A DNA stretch of 64,000 nt from Acidaminococcus timonensis (GTDB taxonomy: Bacteria > Bacillota > Negativicutes > Acidaminococcales > Acidaminococcaceae), in assembly GCF_900106585.1 (NCBI RefSeq), contig NZ_FNWH01000006.1, positions 434,001 to 498,000 of the forward strand, written 5' to 3'. The notes beneath the pieces were generated by a model. It ran no database searches. It was given only the letters and a program-made list of their open reading frames with translations, and was not told the DNA's origin. Positions 14,531-60,101 of the stretch are shown one piece after another. How positions within the stretch are numbered: the stretch's first letter is position 1; each line of letters begins with the position of its first letter. The translations under genes and the position numbers were made by a program.

Positions 14531-15372
14531 AAGACATTCTCTCCTATACGCAAATGCCCAAAGCAACCTATATGTACTGGCAGAAACGGTTTGACCGCGA
14601 GAATCCAGACCAGGAAGTAGAGGAGAAAATACAGGAAATCCGCAGCCAGCATAAAGATTATGGATACCGTCGCATGACCGGTGAGCTAAAGAACCAAGGG
14701 ATTTGCGTGAACAAGAAGAAAGTTCAACGTATCATGCAGAAACTGAGCCTTCAGGTAACATCTTTTACCCGGAAGAGCCGTAAATACAGCTCCTATAAGG
14801 GTAAGGTAGGAACCATTGCTCCAAATAGGATACATCGTCGTTTTGAGACGAATATCCCTCACCAGAAGATTACGACCGACACTTCAGAATTCAAATACTA
14901 TGAAGCAGATTCACAGGGACATTTGACTCTGCGCAAGCTTTATCTGGATCCTTTCCTGGACATGTTCAATAATGAAATCATCAGCTATGGAATAGCCAAA
15001 TATCCTTCGGCTAACAGCATACTGGAAGCTCAAGCCAAAGCAATCAAAATTACTGCTGATTGTCCGTATCGAAGAACATTTCACTCCGATCAGGGCTGGG
15101 CATACCAAATGAAATTCTATACCAAAAGACTAAAAAACGAACGAATTTTTCAGAGCATGTCTCGAAAAGGCAACTGTCATGATAACGCTGTAATGGAAAA
15201 CTTCTTCGGCTTACTGAAGCAGGAAATATATTACGGAGTGACCTACTACAGCTACAAAGAATTAAAAGGCGCTATCGAACGATACATCAAATACTATAAC
15301 GAGCAAAGAATCAAGGAAAAACTGGGCTGGAAAAGTCCTGTTCAATACAGGCTTTCCTTGCAGGCAGCATAA
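14527..15372 (+). CDS. IS3-family transposase OrfB, DDE integrase (copy 1)
   Basis: The catalytic part of the transposase, 281 residues from the first possible independent start (TTG). It has the DDE triad in TTDTSEF (Asp), FHSDQGW (Asp) and ENFFGLLKQE (Glu), with the upstream HTH_21 region HKDYGYRRMTGEL. The frame is -1 relative to orfA and overlaps it by 4 bp. The true product is probably an OrfAB fusion made by frameshifting, since conserved OrfB residues lie upstream of the TTG. The frame is intact, so the element may be active. Confidence 0.93.
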   Translation: MKDILSYTQMPKATYMYWQKRFDRENPDQEVEEKIQEIRSQHKDYGYRRMTGELKNQGICVNKKKVQRIMQKLSLQVTSFTRKSRKYSSYKGKVGTIAPNRIHRRFETNIPHQKITTDTSEFKYYEADSQGHLTLRKLYLDPFLDMFNNEIISYGIAKYPSANSILEAQAKAIKITADCPYRRTFHSDQGWAYQMKFYTKRLKNERIFQSMSRKGNCHDNAVMENFFGLLKQEIYYGVTYYSYKELKGAIERYIKYYNEQRIKEKLGWKSPVQYRLSLQAA

Positions 15373-35127: not shown

Positions 35128-36795
35128 TCAGTTGAATTTCAGCACAGCACCCTGTGCGGCGGAGGAAACCAGGTAGGAATACCGGGCCAGGTACCCTTTC
35201 TTCACCTTGGGAGCCGGGCAGACCCATTTCTCTCTCCGTTTGGCCAGTTCTTCGTCGCTGACCCGTACGTTCAGGGTCCGGTTGGGGATATCGATGTCGA
35301 TGATATCTCCTTCTTCCACCAGGGCGATGTTGCCGCCTTCCCGGGCTTCCGGAGAAATATGGCCGATGCAGGCACCCTGGGTGGCACCGGAGAACCGGCC
35401 GTCGGTCAGGAGGGCAACGGATTTGCCCAGGCCCATACCGGTGATCACGGCGGTGGGGTTCAGCATTTCCCGCATGCCCGGGCCGCCTTTGGGCCCTTCA
35501 TAGCGGATGACCACCACATCCCCCGGTTTGATCTGTTTGCCTACGATGGCTTCGATGGCTTCATCCTCGGAGTCGAATACCCGGGCAGGACCGGAGTGTT
35601 TCAGCATTTCCGGAGCCACGGCGCTTTCCTTGACCACAGAGCAGTCTTTGGCCAGGTTGCCCTTCAGCACGGCAATGCCGCCGGTTCTGCGCACCGGTTC
35701 CTCGTAGGTGTGGATCACTTCCGGACGAAGGATCCTGGCACCCTTGATGTTTTCGCCCACGGTCTTGCCGGTGACGGTCATGCAGTCTTCTTCAATGAGG
35801 CCGTGTTTGGCCAGTTCGTTCATGACAGCACGGATACCGCCGGCTTCCTGGACATCGATCATGTGGAAGGTGCCGCCGGGGCTCAGCTTGGTCAGGTACG
35901 GAGTCTTCTTGCTGATTTCATCGAACAGTTCCAGGGGCAGGTCCACACCGGCTTCATGGGCGATGGCCGGCAGGTGCAGGGCCGTGTTGGTGGAACCACC
36001 CATGGCCATATCCACAGTGATGGCATTGTGGAAGGCTTTTTCCGTCATGATGTCTCTGGGGCAGATGTTCTTTTTCAGCATTTCCATGACCTGTTTGCCG
36101 GCTGCTTTGGCCAGGGCGATCCGGGCGCCCTGATAGGCGGCCGGGATGGTGCCGTTGCCCGGCAGGCCCATGCCCAGGACTTCTGTCAGGGAGTTCATGG
36201 TATTGGCCGTGAACAGGCCGGCGCAGGAGCCGCAGCCCGGGCAGGCACAGTGTTCGATCTCGGACAGTTCTTCCTTGTCGATCTTGCCTGCTGCGAAACG
36301 GCCGGCAGCTTCGAATACAGTGCTGACACTGATGTCTTTGCCATGGTACCGGCCGGGGAGCATGGGTCCGCCGCTGACCACAACAGTGGGGATGTTCAGC
36401 CGGGCAGCAGCCATGAGCATGCCGGGGACGATCTTGTCGCAGTTGGGGATCAGCACCAGGGCATCGAAAGCGTGGCCGTTGGCAACGGCTTCGATGCTGT
36501 CAGCTACCAGTTCCCGGCTGGCCAGGGGATATTTCATGCCATCGTGGCCCATGGCGATGCCGTCACAGATGCCGATGGACGGGAATTCAATGGGAGTACC
36601 ACCGTTTTCCAGCACGCCGTATTTCACGGCCTTGGCAATTCGATCCAGATCCATATGCCCCGGGATGATTTCGTTCTGGGCGTTGCAAATCCCGATCAGG
36701 GGTTTCTTCAATTCATCTTCCGTATACCCCATTGCATAGAACAGGGAACGATGGGCCGCGCGGGTCGTACCTTTTTTTACAATCGTACTTCTCAT
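35128..36795 (-). CDS. ilvD: Dihydroxy-acid dehydratase
   Basis: Dehydrates 2,3-dihydroxyisovalerate and its methyl homologue in branched-chain amino-acid synthesis. The 555-residue protein starts [20 protein letters not shown] and has Fe-S ligands in GICDG (Cys77), PNCDK (Cys119) and [19 protein letters not shown], plus GRFSGATQG near the C-terminus. ATG at 36795 has GAGGAA upstream; the open frame upstream belongs to the promoter region. No other ilv gene is nearby. It is transcribed from its own promoter downstream of rqcH. Confidence 0.96.
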
Positions 36796-41468: not shown

Positions 41469-42671
41469 ATGCTGGAAGGGAAAAAAATTGCAGTAGGGGT
41501 GACCGGTGGCATTGCAGCCTATAAGGTAGTGACGCTGGTGAGCCGCCTGGTCCAGGCCGGTGCCCAGGTGCGGGTGATCATGACTGATGCGGCCACCCAT
41601 CTGGTTTCGCCGCTGCTGTTCAAGGAAATCAGCGGCAATCCTGTTGCCACGAGCCTGTGGGCCGGCAATGCGGAATTCAACGTGGAACACGTGGCCATTG
41701 GACGCTGGTGCGATGTGATGGTGGTGGCTCCGGCCACCGCCGACATCATCGGCAAGATGGCGGGGGGCATTGCAGATGATCTGCTGTCCACCACCCTGAT
41801 GGCCTGTGCCAAACCCAAGATCATCTGTCCGGCCATGAATACCAATATGCTGGAAAACCCGGCTACGGTGCGGAATCTGGAAACACTGCGCAGGGATGGG
41901 GTCACCATCATGCCCAGCGGGGCCGGGCACCTGGCCTGTGGGGTGAACGGATCCGGACGGCTGCCGGAACCGGAGGACATCAAGGCCTTCATCGATGCCT
42001 TCCTGGCCCGCCGGGAAGGGGATCTGCGGGGCCTGCGGATCCTGGTGACGGCTGGGGGCACCCGGGAAGCCATCGATCCGGTGCGTTTCATCGGTAACCG
42101 GTCCAGCGGCAAGATGGGCTATGCCATTGCCCGGGATGCGGCCCGGCGGGGTGCGGAAGTGACCCTGGTATCGGGCCCGACGGCCTTGCAGCCGCCCCGG
42201 AATGTGGCCTTTACCAGCGTGGAAAGCACCCGGGAGATGCTGGATGCAGTGCTGGGGGTGTATCCCAACGTGGACGTGGTGATCATGGCCGCAGCTGTGG
42301 CCGATTACAAGCCCCATCACCGGGCGGAGCAGAAGATCAAGAAGAACGATGAGACCCTGGAACTGTCCCTGGACAAGAACCCGGATATCCTGAAGCTTCT
42401 GGGGCAGCAGAAGGCCGGCCAGCTTTTGGTGGGCTTTGCGGCCGAAACCCAGAATCTGCTGGAGAATGCGGCTGCCAAGGTGAAAAAGAAGAACCTGGAT
42501 ATGATCGTGGCCAATGATGTGACCATGAAGGGGGCCGGTTTCAGTACCGATACCAATGTGGTGAAACTGCTGTTCCCTGACGGCACCATCAAGGGCCTGG
42601 ATCTGATGACCAAGGAAGAAGTGGGGAACCACATCCTGGATATTGTGAAAGAAAAAACGGGCTGCCGGTGA
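41469..42671 (+). CDS. coaBC: Bifunctional phosphopantothenoylcysteine decarboxylase/synthetase
   Basis: Two steps of coenzyme A synthesis. The N-terminal CoaC flavoprotein (about 1-180) has GVTGGIAAYK, PAMNTNM and the substrate-clamp cysteine loop LACGVNGSGRLPEP. The C-terminal CoaB domain (about 187-400) has VTAGGTREAIDPVRFIGNRS, AAAVADYKP and KKKNLDMIVAND. ATG at 41469 follows AAAGGAG. It is the last gene of the operon that starts at 38735. Confidence 0.95.
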   Translation: MLEGKKIAVGVTGGIAAYKVVTLVSRLVQAGAQVRVIMTDAATHLVSPLLFKEISGNPVATSLWAGNAEFNVEHVAIGRWCDVMVVAPATADIIGKMAGGIADDLLSTTLMACAKPKIICPAMNTNMLENPATVRNLETLRRDGVTIMPSGAGHLACGVNGSGRLPEPEDIKAFIDAFLARREGDLRGLRILVTAGGTREAIDPVRFIGNRSSGKMGYAIARDAARRGAEVTLVSGPTALQPPRNVAFTSVESTREMLDAVLGVYPNVDVVIMAAAVADYKPHHRAEQKIKKNDETLELSLDKNPDILKLLGQQKAGQLLVGFAAETQNLLENAAAKVKKKNLDMIVANDVTMKGAGFSTDTNVVKLLFPDGTIKGLDLMTKEEVGNHILDIVKEKTGCR

Positions 42672-42719: not shown

Positions 42720-43193
42720 ATGAAGCTTCTGTTCAAACAACGGATCTTTTCCTGGTTCGACAGTTACGATATCTACGATGAAGATGGCAACACGGTGTTT
42801 GTGGTGAAGGGGCAGCTGGCCTGGGGCCACAAATTGAAGATCTATGATGCCCAGGGCAGGGAAGTGGGCCTGGTGCGGGAAAAGATCCTCACGTTCCTGC
42901 CGGCCTTTGAGCTGTACGAAAACGGGAAATATATCGGCCGGATCAAAAAGAAGCTCACCCTGTTCAGCCCGGGGTTCGACATCGATTTCAACGGCTGGCA
43001 GGTGGACGGCAACCTGCTGGAGTGGGATTATACCATCAGCGACGCCCAGGGAGAATGGGTGGCCACGGTGAGCAAAGAGCTGTTCCATCTCAGTGACACC
43101 TACGTGCTGGAAATCGGCGACCCGCAGAACGCCCTGTACGTGCTCATGTTTGCCCTGGCCATGGACGCCGAGAAGTGCAGCCGGGAGAAATAG
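42720..43193 (+). CDS. LURP-one-related/YxjI-like protein
   Basis: A 157-residue protein with the repeated short beta-strand pattern of the LURP-one/tubby-like beta barrel: YDIYDEDGNTVFVVKGQL, LKIYDAQGREVGLVREK, FELYENGKYIGRIKKK. The final part is hydrophobic (YVLMFALAMDAEKC). The fold is related to scramblases, but the role in bacteria is unknown. ATG at 42720 has GGAGGAG upstream, and the gene has its own promoter. Confidence 0.85.
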   Translation: MKLLFKQRIFSWFDSYDIYDEDGNTVFVVKGQLAWGHKLKIYDAQGREVGLVREKILTFLPAFELYENGKYIGRIKKKLTLFSPGFDIDFNGWQVDGNLLEWDYTISDAQGEWVATVSKELFHLSDTYVLEIGDPQNALYVLMFALAMDAEKCSREK

Positions 43194-43250: not shown

Positions 43251-43279
43251 TTGACAATTCCCGAAAGCGAATGTAGTAT
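43251..43279 (+). promoter_or_regulatory. Promoter of the T-box leader
   Basis: TTGACA (43251-43256) and TAGTAT (43274-43279) with 17-bp spacing; transcription should start near 43286. Confidence 0.7.
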
Positions 43280-43285
43280 GTAACC

Positions 43286-43594
43286 ATACTTTTTAAAGAA
43301 AGCAATCAAAACTTCACATCCCTTTGTGAAATCTGATGATGGGAAAGAGTACTTTTTGACGAGCTCATGCAGAGAGCCGGTGGGTGGTGCGAACCGGTTG
43401 GGACCCAGGAAGGAAAATCCTCCCGGAAGAGAAGCGCTGAAGCAGGTCATTAAGCGCGTACGGCTGATCCCCGTTACAGGAAACGCGTATGTTGGTACGT
43501 TGCAAGTGTCCATGGGCAGCAATGCCTGTGGGAATCAGGGTGGTAACGCGGACTTTTCAAATCCGTCCCTTCTTTTGGAGGGGCGGATTTTTTG
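43286..43594 (+). promoter_or_regulatory. T-box riboswitch leader
   Basis: The leader has the expected elements in order. First come a GAGTA motif (about 43347) and AGAGAGCCGGTGG with GCGAACCGGT (43372-43401), the distal part of Stem I. A CCCGTTA element follows (about 43472-43478), then the T-box AGGGTGGTAACGCG (43537-43550). An intrinsic terminator follows (AATCCGTCCC...GGGGCGGATT, then T6). GGA and AGGG of the T-box can instead pair with TCC and CCCT of the terminator's 5' arm, giving the antiterminator. TGGT in the bulge implies a tRNA with A at position 73. The specifier codon could not be assigned with confidence. Confidence 0.9.
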
Positions 43595-43623
43595 ATTGCA
43601 AAAAGAGAGAGGGGTCTTATGCA

Positions 43624-44634
43624 ATGAGTTTGAAAACCGTTTGTAAAATGATTGGCAAGTATTTCGGGGTGATCGCCCTGGTGTTCCTGGGCATCGGGCT
43701 GACCGAACCCCATGCTTTTTCCTGGGTGCTGGGCAAGGCCCATGGGGTCTCCATCCTGAGCGTGATGCTGGGAATCATCATGTTCGGTATGGGCATGACC
43801 ACCAGCCTGCATGACTTCGCCCTGGTGCTGAAGCAGCCCAGGAACATCTTCTTCGGTGTCTGCGCCCAGTACTTCGTGATGCCTTTCCTGGCCTTCTGCC
43901 TGTCCAAGGCCTTCCATCTGGATCCGGCCCTGACCGTGGGCGTGGTCCTGGTAGGGACCTGCCCCGGCGGCACCAGCTCCAACGTGATCACCTTCATGAG
44001 CCATGGGGATGTTCCTTTCTCCGTGACCATGACCAGCTGTTCCACGGTGCTGTCGCCCATCATGACTCCGCTGTTGACCTATCTGATCATCGGCAAGCAG
44101 ATCTCCTTTGATCCGGTGGGCATGTTCGTTTCCATCCTGCAGATCGTGTTCTTCCCCATCGCTGTTGGTCTGGCTGTGAAGAACTTCTTCCCGAAATTCG
44201 CCAAGGAAGCCATCGATTATCTGCCGGCTGTATCCTCTCTGGTAATCTCCTTCCTGATCGCCGGAATCATCGGTGCCAGCCGCAACGCCATCCTGAACAG
44301 CGCCGGTGTCATCCTGCTGGTGGTGATCCTGCACAACGTGCTGGGCTATGTACTGGGCTTTGCCATCGGTAAGGCAACCGGCATGAACTGGAGACAGATG
44401 GTGGCCCTGTCCATCGAAGTGGGGATGCAGAACTCCGGACTGGCAACGGGCCTGGCCAAAGCCCATTTCGCTTCCATGCCCATGGCTGGCGTACCCGGTG
44501 CCATCTTCAGTGCCTGGCACAACATCTCCGGTGCGGTGCTGGCCTATGTGTACAGCAACTATCTGAATAAGCGGTTCGATTCTGAATTCGAAGAAGAACT
44601 GGAACCGGAAGTAGCGGCGGTGAGAGCAAAATAA
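43624..44634 (+). CDS. BASS family (bile acid:Na+ symporter superfamily) transporter under T-box control
   Basis: A 336-residue membrane protein with about ten helices. BASS hallmarks are GIIMFGMGMTTSLHDFALVL, PFLAFCLSK, VGTCPGGTSSNVITFMS and the helix-9 region SIEVGMQNSGLATGLA. Bacterial members carry substrates such as pantoate or other organic acids with Na+. The T-box leader implies expression rises when one amino acid's tRNA is uncharged, so the cargo is probably that amino acid, its 2-oxo acid or a precursor. ATG at 43624 follows GAGAGGGG. IS3 copy 2 begins 30 bp after the stop. Confidence 0.9.
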   Translation: MSLKTVCKMIGKYFGVIALVFLGIGLTEPHAFSWVLGKAHGVSILSVMLGIIMFGMGMTTSLHDFALVLKQPRNIFFGVCAQYFVMPFLAFCLSKAFHLDPALTVGVVLVGTCPGGTSSNVITFMSHGDVPFSVTMTSCSTVLSPIMTPLLTYLIIGKQISFDPVGMFVSILQIVFFPIAVGLAVKNFFPKFAKEAIDYLPAVSSLVISFLIAGIIGASRNAILNSAGVILLVVILHNVLGYVLGFAIGKATGMNWRQMVALSIEVGMQNSGLATGLAKAHFASMPMAGVPGAIFSAWHNISGAVLAYVYSNYLNKRFDSEFEEELEPEVAAVRAK

Positions 44635-44719
44635 AAAGAAAAAGGACTGCCGTTACTGGCAGTTGAGCTGACCCCCAATTGTTAGACCAAAAATCTAACA
44701 ATTGGGGGTTAGTTTTTTT

Positions 44720-45298
44720 ATGGCAAGACACAGCTATGAATTTAAGAAAAAAATAGTACTGGAATACTTGAACAGTGACAAAGGGTGTATTTCTATTTCA
44801 CGTAAATATGGGATGGCAAGTAGCAGCCAGCTGCTAAAGTGGGCTGCTGCTTACAAGGCATTTGGAGATAATGGTCTGAAGAGATCTCGCTCTCAAAAAA
44901 TATACTCTTTCAAAGAAAAACTTTCTGTGGTAGAGTCTTACTTAACAAATGAAATCTCATATCAGGAATTGGCAATTCGTGTAGGAATCAACAATCCGTC
45001 ATTGATTTCCAGATGGGTCAATGAATTTAAAATTGCGGGGCCGGATGCGTTACGGTCACATAAAAAAGGTAGGAAAAAGACTTTGAGCCAATCAAAACCC
45101 AAAAAAACAGATACCCAGGTTCAACAACCGATGGTCAACATCAGTGTGGAACATGTCCAGGAGTTAGAGAATGAAAACCTTAAACTCCGAATAGAGAATG
45201 CTTTTTTAAAAGAACTGAGGAGACTGCGTTTAGAGGACGAAGCAAAAATGAGAGAGTTGCGAAAATCATCTCCAGTCTCCGAGGATCATTCAAGTTGA
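44720..45298 (+). CDS. IS3-family transposase OrfA (copy 2)
   Basis: 192 residues, identical to the OrfA at 13952-14530. It has tandem helix-turn-helix regions and a C-terminal leucine-zipper-like stretch. The start ATG follows the left-end hairpin and T7 run. T_TTT_TTA at 45202-45208 is the predicted -1 slip site. Identity of the two copies means recent transposition or gene conversion. Confidence 0.93.
   Translation: MARHSYEFKKKIVLEYLNSDKGCISISRKYGMASSSQLLKWAAAYKAFGDNGLKRSRSQKIYSFKEKLSVVESYLTNEISYQELAIRVGINNPSLISRWVNEFKIAGPDALRSHKKGRKKTLSQSKPKKTDTQVQQPMVNISVEHVQELENENLKLRIENAFLKELRRLRLEDEAKMRELRKSSPVSEDHSS
45202..45208 (+). other. Predicted -1 ribosomal frameshift site in IS copy 2
   Basis: The same T_TTT_TTA heptamer as at 14434-14440, with the -1 frame open into orfB. 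Confidence 0.65.
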
Positions 45299-46140
45299 AA
45301 GACATTCTCTCCTATACGCAAATGCCCAAAGCAACCTATATGTACTGGCAGAAACGGTTTGACCGCGAGAATCCAGACCAGGAAGTAGAGGAGAAAATAC
45401 AGGAAATCCGCAGCCAGCATAAAGATTATGGATACCGTCGCATGACCGGTGAGCTAAAGAACCAAGGGATTTGCGTGAACAAGAAGAAAGTTCAACGTAT
45501 CATGCAGAAACTGAGCCTTCAGGTAACATCTTTTACCCGGAAGAGCCGTAAATACAGCTCCTATAAGGGTAAGGTAGGAACCATTGCTCCAAATAGGATA
45601 CATCGTCGTTTTGAGACGAATATCCCTCACCAGAAGATTACGACCGACACTTCAGAATTCAAATACTATGAAGCAGATTCACAGGGACATTTGACTCTGC
45701 GCAAGCTTTATCTGGATCCTTTCCTGGACATGTTCAATAATGAAATCATCAGCTATGGAATAGCCAAATATCCTTCGGCTAACAGCATACTGGAAGCTCA
45801 AGCCAAAGCAATCAAAATTACTGCTGATTGTCCGTATCGAAGAACATTTCACTCCGATCAGGGCTGGGCATACCAAATGAAATTCTATACCAAAAGACTA
45901 AAAAACGAACGAATTTTTCAGAGCATGTCTCGAAAAGGCAACTGTCATGATAACGCTGTAATGGAAAACTTCTTCGGCTTACTGAAGCAGGAAATATATT
46001 ACGGAGTGACCTACTACAGCTACAAAGAATTAAAAGGCGCTATCGAACGATACATCAAATACTATAACGAGCAAAGAATCAAGGAAAAACTGGGCTGGAA
46101 AAGTCCTGTTCAATACAGGCTTTCCTTGCAGGCAGCATAA
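45295..46140 (+). CDS. IS3-family transposase OrfB, DDE integrase (copy 2)
   Basis: 281 residues, identical to the OrfB at 14527-15372, with the DDE residues in TTDTSEF, FHSDQGW and ENFFGLLKQE. It overlaps orfA by 4 bp in the -1 frame. It is probably produced as an OrfAB fusion through frameshifting. The frame is intact. Confidence 0.93.
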   Translation: MKDILSYTQMPKATYMYWQKRFDRENPDQEVEEKIQEIRSQHKDYGYRRMTGELKNQGICVNKKKVQRIMQKLSLQVTSFTRKSRKYSSYKGKVGTIAPNRIHRRFETNIPHQKITTDTSEFKYYEADSQGHLTLRKLYLDPFLDMFNNEIISYGIAKYPSANSILEAQAKAIKITADCPYRRTFHSDQGWAYQMKFYTKRLKNERIFQSMSRKGNCHDNAVMENFFGLLKQEIYYGVTYYSYKELKGAIERYIKYYNEQRIKEKLGWKSPVQYRLSLQAA

Positions 46141-46143
46141 AAA

Positions 46144-46175
46144 AGTAACGAGACGGTAAAAACCATCTCGTTACT
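46144..46175 (+). terminator. Hairpin at the 3' end of IS copy 2
   Basis: GTAACGAGACGG/CCATCTCGTTAC, as in copy 1. Confidence 0.55.
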
Positions 46176-46202
46176 AAGGTCTAACTTTTTGGGGTCACAT
46201 CA

Positions 46203-46231
46203 AGGGACTGTTTTGAACAGTCCCTTTTTTT
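46203..46231 (+). terminator. Terminator immediately after IS copy 2
   Basis: AGGGACTG pairs with CAGTCCCT and is followed by T7. It begins at the first base outside the element. The following 46232-46342 region is A/T-rich with no clear promoter hexamer pair. Confidence 0.8.
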
Positions 46232-59984: not shown

Positions 59985-60016
59985 AGAAAAAACTTCAAAG
60001 AATCACCTTTTAACCT

Positions 60017-60101
60017 AGTCCTGTGAGACTAAGAAAGGGACTTTTATCCAGAAGCAGTTATTAGAAGCCTTCTTGTCTTAGGACGAGAAGGCTTATTTTT
60101 A
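60017..60101 (+). promoter_or_regulatory. PyrR-responsive attenuator of the pyr operon
   Basis: AGTCCTGTGAGACTAAGAAAGG at 60017-60038 matches the PyrR-binding loop of pyr leaders (AGTCC-N-G-N-GAG-RCT-N-N-N-AAGG). A terminator follows: 13-bp stem 60065-60077/60082-60094 with loop TTAG and a T-rich tail. UMP-bound PyrR should favour termination. A second G/C-rich dyad sits at about 60107-60130 before the pyrB ribosome-binding site. The pyrR gene is not in this window. Confidence 0.82.

Follow-up and report, generated by a model that had tools for sequence, protein, structure and literature searches.

The window analysed here, a stretch of 64,000 nucleotides from Acidaminococcus timonensis, contains a T-box leader placed directly before a gene for a transporter of the BASS family, called BASS1 in this text. 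Human bile-acid carriers and NTCP, the receptor for hepatitis B, belong to this family, and to our knowledge few of its bacterial members have a known substrate. The features on which the analysis turns are the following.

35140-36795, minus strand: ilvD, dihydroxy-acid dehydratase, an open frame of 552 codons
43251-43279, plus strand: promoter of sigma-70 type, TTGACA-17-TAGTAT, 10 of 12 matches in a motif scan
43327-43573, plus strand: full-length T-box leader, positions 1-219 of the RF00230 covariance model
43417-43419, plus strand: specifier codon AUC (isoleucine), from the covariance-model alignment
43537-43570, plus strand: antiterminator, from the model alignment and folding
43559-43590, plus strand: intrinsic terminator, 14 pairs followed by a T-run, from folding of 43537-43590
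43624-44634, plus strand: BASS1, a BASS/SBF transporter of 336 residues, PF01758 (SBF), 150.4 bits against a cut-off of 24.3

The 0.95 kb from the end of coaBC (41472-42671) to BASS1 hold another gene and the promoter of the leader. A LURP-one-related protein is encoded between coaBC and the T-box (42720-43193; PF04525, 45.2 bits). About 30 nt after the BASS1 stop codon lies an insertion sequence (44663-46203) with an integrase-type transposase in two frames; an identical copy of 1,541 bp is found downstream of ilvN in an ilvC-ilvB-ilvN unit headed by an isoleucine T-box (L084), and a 40-base probe located a further copy around position 14633 of the window. At the far side of the window, a PyrR-binding RNA element (60002-60100) scores 55.1 bits, just above its cut-off of 54.

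The leader matches RF00230 with 125.9 bits (E 1.7e-27; gathering cut-off 93) over the full length of the model, and the complete T-box described in the first-pass annotation is thereby confirmed. A chance match was rejected, as the score is far above the cut-off and the same leader, at 127-132 bits, stands on the orthologous gene in three congeners. Stem I alone (43327-43440) has a fold energy no better than that of shuffled sequences (153/200). The leader's end is separated by 50 nt from the start of the BASS gene, an ATG at 43624; a longer mechanical open frame starting at 43489 was rejected, since that start falls inside the leader. Upstream, the promoter boxes TTGACA (43251-43256) and TAGTAT (43274-43279) flank a 17-nt spacer, and transcription is therefore expected to begin near 43286, the coordinate at which the earlier annotation had begun the feature. 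The promoter scan of the region returned 4 sites against 1.1 expected from shuffles, which is weak when taken alone; TTGACA-17-TAAGAT occupies the matching place upstream of the leaders of the three congeneric orthologs, and the claim that the leader has its own consensus promoter stands.

Folding with a covariance model and calling of the specifier had been proposed as a check in the first-pass annotation, which itself left the specifier uncalled. The model alignment gives the specifier loop as GAA-A-AUC-C-UCCC, and thus an isoleucine codon, AUC, which occurs at the same place in the leaders of the three congeneric orthologs. Specifiers for the other amino acids compatible with A73 were rejected, the aligned position being AUC in 4/4 leaders that stand directly on BASS1. 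The same genome encodes the matching tRNA-Ile(GAU) at L211 1501-1577, found by a tRNA family search (57 places, 30 of them taken as loci) and ARAGORN (20 of these loci); a simple sequence pattern for this tRNA gave 0 matches. The tRNA gene ends in GGCCC-A-CCA, i.e. with A73, in agreement with the prediction previously drawn from the TGGT bulge, and the UGGU at 43541-43544 fits this discriminator base.

The antiterminator is composed of the arms AGGG (43537-43540) and GCGGA (43548-43552), the bulge UGGUAAC (43541-43547), whose UGGU would read the A73-CCA of tRNA-Ile, and a 3' arm at 43562-43570. The RNA of 43537-43573 folds in the canonical antiterminator shape, with 4 + 5 pairs around a 7-nt bulge, at -7.5 kcal/mol; that energy was matched by 80 of 200 shuffles, and it is the canonical geometry, not the energy, that speaks for the predicted fold. 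With 17 more bases (43537-43590) the RNA folds to the terminator, at -25.2 kcal/mol, an energy as low as which was reached by 0 of 200 shuffles. As UCCGUCCCU (43562-43570) is an arm common to both structures, terminator and antiterminator exclude each other.

The gene downstream was correctly recognized earlier as a BASS permease. Its assignment stops at the family level: BASS1 scores 250.5 bits against TIGR00841, under the cut-off of 326.3, and 241.3 bits against the PanS equivalog NF047939, under the cut-off of 400. It aligns to ASBT_NM (3zux) over 4-311 with 260 bits.

Seventeen T-box matches, 11 of them above the cut-off, were found in the 2.30-Mb genome from which the window comes. Their specifiers are those for isoleucine and leucine (four each), cysteine (two) and valine, phenylalanine, methionine, serine, threonine and tryptophan (one each); the alignment shows no specifier in a short leader that precedes a glyQS-like gene. 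The four isoleucine leaders precede ilvC-ilvB-ilvN, an ileS-like gene, BASS1 and a paralog, BASS2 (names partly by eye). A leucine-specific T-box (CUG; L004 / L048 4773-5014) precedes another multi-spanning membrane protein of this genome. The genes ilvA (489 bits) and ilvE (376 bits) score above their cut-offs, and ilvC, ilvB and ilvN were identified by eye from translations; with ilvD, the isoleucine pathway of this genome (ilvA, ilvB, ilvN, ilvC, ilvD, ilvE) looks complete, so that an imported acid of the pathway could be used. The ilvD gene of the window (G000:C6:469140-470795 in genome coordinates) has none of the genome's 17 T-box matches and stands apart from BASS1; in relatives, both lie in one unit. 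Compared with the ilvD in the T-box-ilvD-BASS1 unit of G002 it has no more than about 70% identity, and it looks as if it had been replaced.

The BASS1 clade was sampled as 32 genes in 31 genomes, at 59-100% identity; those of G015 and G028 are excluded, as they begin at the edge of a contig, which leaves 30 assessable. A T-box lies over 15 of them. It stands directly on BASS1 in four Acidaminococcus genomes, that of the window included, and here AUC, UGGU and the terminator are intact in every leader (4/4). Six genomes, namely four other congeners, G019 and G071, have a T-box-ilvD-BASS1 unit, and five Megasphaera-family genomes a T-box-ilvC-ilvB-ilvN-ilvD-BASS1 unit, in all five of which an ilvC frame of 333 codons was found by motif. 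The specifiers of the BASS1 units are AUC (isoleucine) in 12 cases and CUC (leucine) in three (G005, G019, G071). For the other 15 of the 30 genes no T-box was found nearby, as judged for 13 of them by the model over about 1.5 kb, for G069 over a longer stretch, and for the second copy of G020 by regular expression alone. In two genomes with T-box-ilv-BASS1, G001 and G002, IlvE was found by neither of two models, and a third, G043, gave only weak fragments of it. By eye, the ilv units of Acidaminococcus and the Megasphaera family were repeatedly seen to have a protein of about 410-445 residues as a neighbour (L084 2839-4092, L088 5066-6310, L143 12464-13696, L145 618-1952, L148 11196-12425), and in G025 a lysine riboswitch (L027 2783-2949) lies near the BASS1-clade gene, ahead of a dapB-like gene.

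The association with T-boxes is complete for BASS2. Among 300 genomes of the class, searched with E up to 1e-80, 23 contain a total of 27 genes at least 53% identical to the BASS2 of this genome, and all 27 have a T-box directly upstream. Twenty-five of these leaders score above the cut-off; that of G073 reaches 90.9 bits and that of G186, which has a shortened stem I, 66.9 bits. Their specifiers are for isoleucine (18), valine (eight) and leucine (one). Two BASS2 copies occur in each of four genomes, one isoleucine and one valine copy in G064, G067 and G070, one leucine and one isoleucine copy in G061. A more distant BASS gene, in G236, 45-46% identical to BASS1 or BASS2, also follows a T-box (132.0 bits, AUC); it is the one with a T-box among eight scanned, out of 22 matches in the class at 43-48% identity. 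The comparison of leaders across Negativicutes BASS genes that the first-pass annotation had suggested thus yields 43 BASS-linked T-boxes, all with branched-chain specifiers: 31 for isoleucine, eight for valine and four for leucine. Thirty-four of the 43 calls come from covariance-model alignments and nine were made by eye at the same position (L159, L161, L162, L164, L166, L169, L171, L172, L173). A terminator hairpin and UGGU bulge were present in 42/42 leaders searched by script (all but G236; no shuffle control). The codons used agree with the preferences recorded in TBDB, where AUC is the preferred isoleucine specifier and CUC is found in 74% of leucine leaders (PMC7778990).

The third paralog of this genome, BASS3, has another setting. 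It directly follows panC (L048 11103-12930), and the closest T-box is some 7 kb upstream and precedes a different gene. A panC motif is present in the same locus for 14 of 19 BASS3 tree rows, and a T-box directly upstream was found in none of the 19 (L046, L048 and L120 by model, the rest by regular expression). BASS3 is likely a pantoate carrier, and pantoate thus seems to have its own carrier. The pan motif, which as an RNA element is known to occur in pantothenate operons (PMC2864571), was found with RF01749 upstream of three BASS genes, two of the BASS1 clade (G031, G036) and one of the BASS3 clade (G074), at L038 1275-1367, L039 1272-1364 and L120 1214-1300. The G031 and G036 genes have no T-box, panC directly downstream, and Ala at position 113 of the binding site described below; in the G074 locus the panC motif was not found. 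Among the three BASS3 loci scanned with the model one contains the pan motif, which the scan did not detect at the BASS3 locus of this genome or that of G008. In the 64-kb window no panC motif was found, and BASS1 thus lacks a genomic link to pantothenate genes, taken as an indicator of PanS rather than as a curated criterion. By these data, context sorts the family into genes with a T-box and ilv genes and genes with panC, some of the latter loci with a pan motif.

The BASS tree has 90 rows after merging of near-identical genes, so that the 27 BASS2 genes form 24 rows and the 15 T-box-linked BASS1 genes 14. Each of the 24 rows in the BASS2 clade (support 100/100) has a T-box. Over the whole tree, with 39 T-box rows and 51 without, the T-box label changes four times; shuffled labels gave a mean of 29 changes, computed from a labelling with G236 as T-box-less, for which three changes are observed. 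BASS1 of the window and its three congeneric counterparts stand apart from the other Acidaminococcus BASS1 genes and group (98/96) with five Megasphaera-family rows, which suggests horizontal transfer. In the tree of leaders, those of BASS2 form one group (97/98), and those of BASS1 fall among ilv-operon leaders (98/96). These separate groups imply that BASS genes most likely acquired a T-box on more than one occasion, a pattern hard to explain by relics; the leader directly on BASS1 probably arose from an ilv-operon leader when the ilv genes in between were lost.

In ASBT_NM, pantoate is held via Thr112, Ala113, Asn265, Gly267, His294 and Asn295 and is flanked by Ile47 and Ile203 (PMC10645422). 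The BASS1 counterparts are Thr117, Ser118, Asn270, Gly272, His299, Asn300, Ile52 and Ile208, and the predicted pantoate site is nearly complete, with Ala113 to Ser as its sole change. S119 and N120 correspond to the Na+ ligands Ser114 and Asn115, positions at which all 90 aligned BASS rows have Ser and Asn. At position 113, Ser is found in 14/14 T-box-linked BASS1 rows and Ala in 19/19 BASS3 rows; since Ser is also present in 10/16 BASS1 rows without a T-box, this residue does not sort the groups cleanly. In BASS2 the site is altered in all 24 rows (Asn295 to Gln, Gly267 to Ala, Ile203 to Val). The second hydroxyl of pantoate is held by two residues, of which Asn295 is one, and BASS2, which lacks Asn295, probably takes acids without that hydroxyl. 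ASBT_NM binds pantoate and not ketopantoate, which argues against a 2-oxo acid in such a site and favours a 2-hydroxy acid; Salmonella PanS is reported to carry both (cited in PMC10645422).

We consider it reasonably probable (about 60%) that the isoleucine T-box controls, through induction on isoleucine starvation, a BASS1 importer whose substrate is an ilv-pathway acid, either a 2-oxo or a 2-hydroxy acid with a branched chain. Regulation by the leader is well supported by sequence; the substrate of BASS1, the direction of transport, antitermination in vivo and coupling to Na+ are inferred. When tRNA-Ile is charged, the leader would fold to the terminator and transcription would halt before BASS1. 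When isoleucine is short, uncharged tRNA-Ile(GAU) would pair with AUC in the specifier loop and, through its ACCA end, with the UGGU bulge, which would stabilize the antiterminator and allow BASS1 to be transcribed. BASS1 would then most likely import, together with Na+, one of the branched-chain acids on the way to isoleucine, candidates being 2-oxo-3-methylvalerate, its 2-hydroxy form or 2,3-dihydroxy-3-methylvalerate, and IlvD and/or IlvE would turn it into isoleucine. The reasoning is that a T-box switches its gene on when an amino acid is short, so that the carrier should bring in relief for the shortage. The first-pass annotation had suggested import of an amino acid, the corresponding 2-oxo acid or a precursor, a proposal that is strengthened by the ilv links and the 43/43 branched-chain specifiers. 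Against the favoured reading count the unclear IlvE of G001, G002 and G043, the half of the assessable BASS1-clade genes for which no T-box was found nearby (G031 and G036, with panC and a pan motif, among them), the nearly complete pantoate site, and the fold energies of antiterminator and stem I, which are no better than those of shuffles.

A first competitor is import of isoleucine itself, or of branched-chain amino acids generally, in the manner proposed for T-box-controlled LIVCS, ABC and APC carriers. Many amino-acid carriers are under T-boxes, and in every case with a verified downstream gene the specifier agreed with its function (Wels 2008, PMC2494555); BASS2 leaders with isoleucine, valine and leucine specifiers would also suit such carriers. 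The BASS substrates named in PMC10645422, namely pantoate, pyruvate, glycolate and 2-keto acids besides bile acids and steroid sulphates, lack however an alpha-amino group, apart from those of putative neurotransmitter carriers, and BASS1 shares a unit with ilvD or ilvCBND in 11 genomes, which fits an intermediate better. Taken together, the ilvD link and the binding site favour a pathway acid over isoleucine, whose import we regard as unlikely, though the strongest of the rivals. Efflux, either of surplus branched-chain acid or to balance the pathway, would accord with the five Megasphaera-family genomes in which BASS1 comes last, behind ilvD, in a complete ilv unit; efflux is nevertheless very improbable, given that a T-box raises expression on starvation, when efflux would worsen the shortage, and that many BASS members are sodium-coupled uptake carriers (PMC10645422).

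Slightly less likely than isoleucine import is a PanS-type pantoate or ketopantoate carrier, on which the isoleucine T-box would be a relic of ilv genes formerly in the unit. All ASBT_NM contacts to pantoate but one are kept in BASS1, PanS is one of its two NCBIfam matches (241 bits of 400), two genes of its clade sit with panC and a pan motif, and the place of the window leader among ilv-operon leaders (98/96) makes a loss of intervening ilv genes plausible. A relic does not readily account for the intact AUC, UGGU and terminator of the four direct BASS1 leaders, nor for the separate group formed by the leaders of BASS2, which is without the Asn295 and Gly267 contacts in 24/24 rows; moreover, this genome has a separate BASS3 directly after panC, and Ser113 in 14/14 T-box BASS1 rows stands against Ala in BASS3, yet Ser also occurs in 10/16 T-box-less BASS1. 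The main reason for preferring a branched-chain substrate to pantoate is that two BASS1-clade genes with a pan motif sit with panC, and 11 with a T-box sit with ilv genes. Pantoate and 2,3-dihydroxy-3-methylvalerate are isomers (C6H12O4), and both are 2-hydroxy-carboxylates. Within the ilv-acid reading, a more specific and rather speculative version is that BASS1 imports the IlvD substrate 2,3-dihydroxy-3-methylvalerate, with which gut anaerobes would, when starved, salvage an intermediate leaked by their neighbours. This would explain both the position of BASS1 after ilvD and the retention of a pantoate-type site for 2-hydroxy acids; BASS2 would then be a carrier of simpler 2-oxo or 2-hydroxy branched-chain acids, in versions switched by isoleucine, valine and leucine.

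With respect to known systems, the leader itself is an ordinary class I transcriptional T-box (RF00230), with the same stem I specifier loop, UGGN bulge, overlapping terminator, promoter and cognate tRNA gene. It differs in controlling a BASS carrier, a target absent from the seven families of T-box-regulated transporters listed in Wels 2008 (MFS, APC, NSS, DAACS, LIVCS, NhaC and ABC; PMC2494555). Passages of a T-box regulon survey (PMC3766115) likewise name no BASS-type carrier. Among titles and the beginnings of abstracts in open PMC text, a scope outside which the largest older surveys fall, no link between a BASS carrier and a T-box was found, and 'bile acid' occurs 0 times in the top-ranked T-box papers of that text. 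The closest regulatory parallel is provided by the LIVCS/BrnQ carriers, in which an isoleucine, valine or leucine T-box likewise stands on a cation-coupled carrier (Wels 2008, Table 1, PMC2494555); they belong to an unrelated family, whereas BASS1 likely carries an acid rather than an amino acid and is linked to ilv biosynthesis genes. With PanS and ASBT_NM, carriers of coenzyme A precursors, BASS1 shares the Na+ ligands and T112, N265, G267, H294, N295, I47 and I203, and it differs by Ser at 113, a PanS score below the cut-off and a T-box and ilv link in place of panC. Plant BASS5, a carrier of chain-elongated 2-keto acids, is of the same family and has a 2-oxo substrate class close to the one proposed for BASS1, but plant keto-acid carriers differ at T112 and N265, where BASS1 has the pantoate-type pair (PMC10645422).

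The predicted RNA switch for isoleucine shortage on a BASS transporter points to an unrecognised uptake route for branched-chain building blocks, and genome context provides named, testable substrates for two groups of carriers in Acidaminococcus and Megasphaera. The genomes in which BASS2 is present as both an isoleucine- and a valine-switched copy offer a natural test of whether T-box specifier and carrier specificity correspond. More broadly, these observations suggest that intermediates of branched-chain biosynthesis might pass between gut bacteria.
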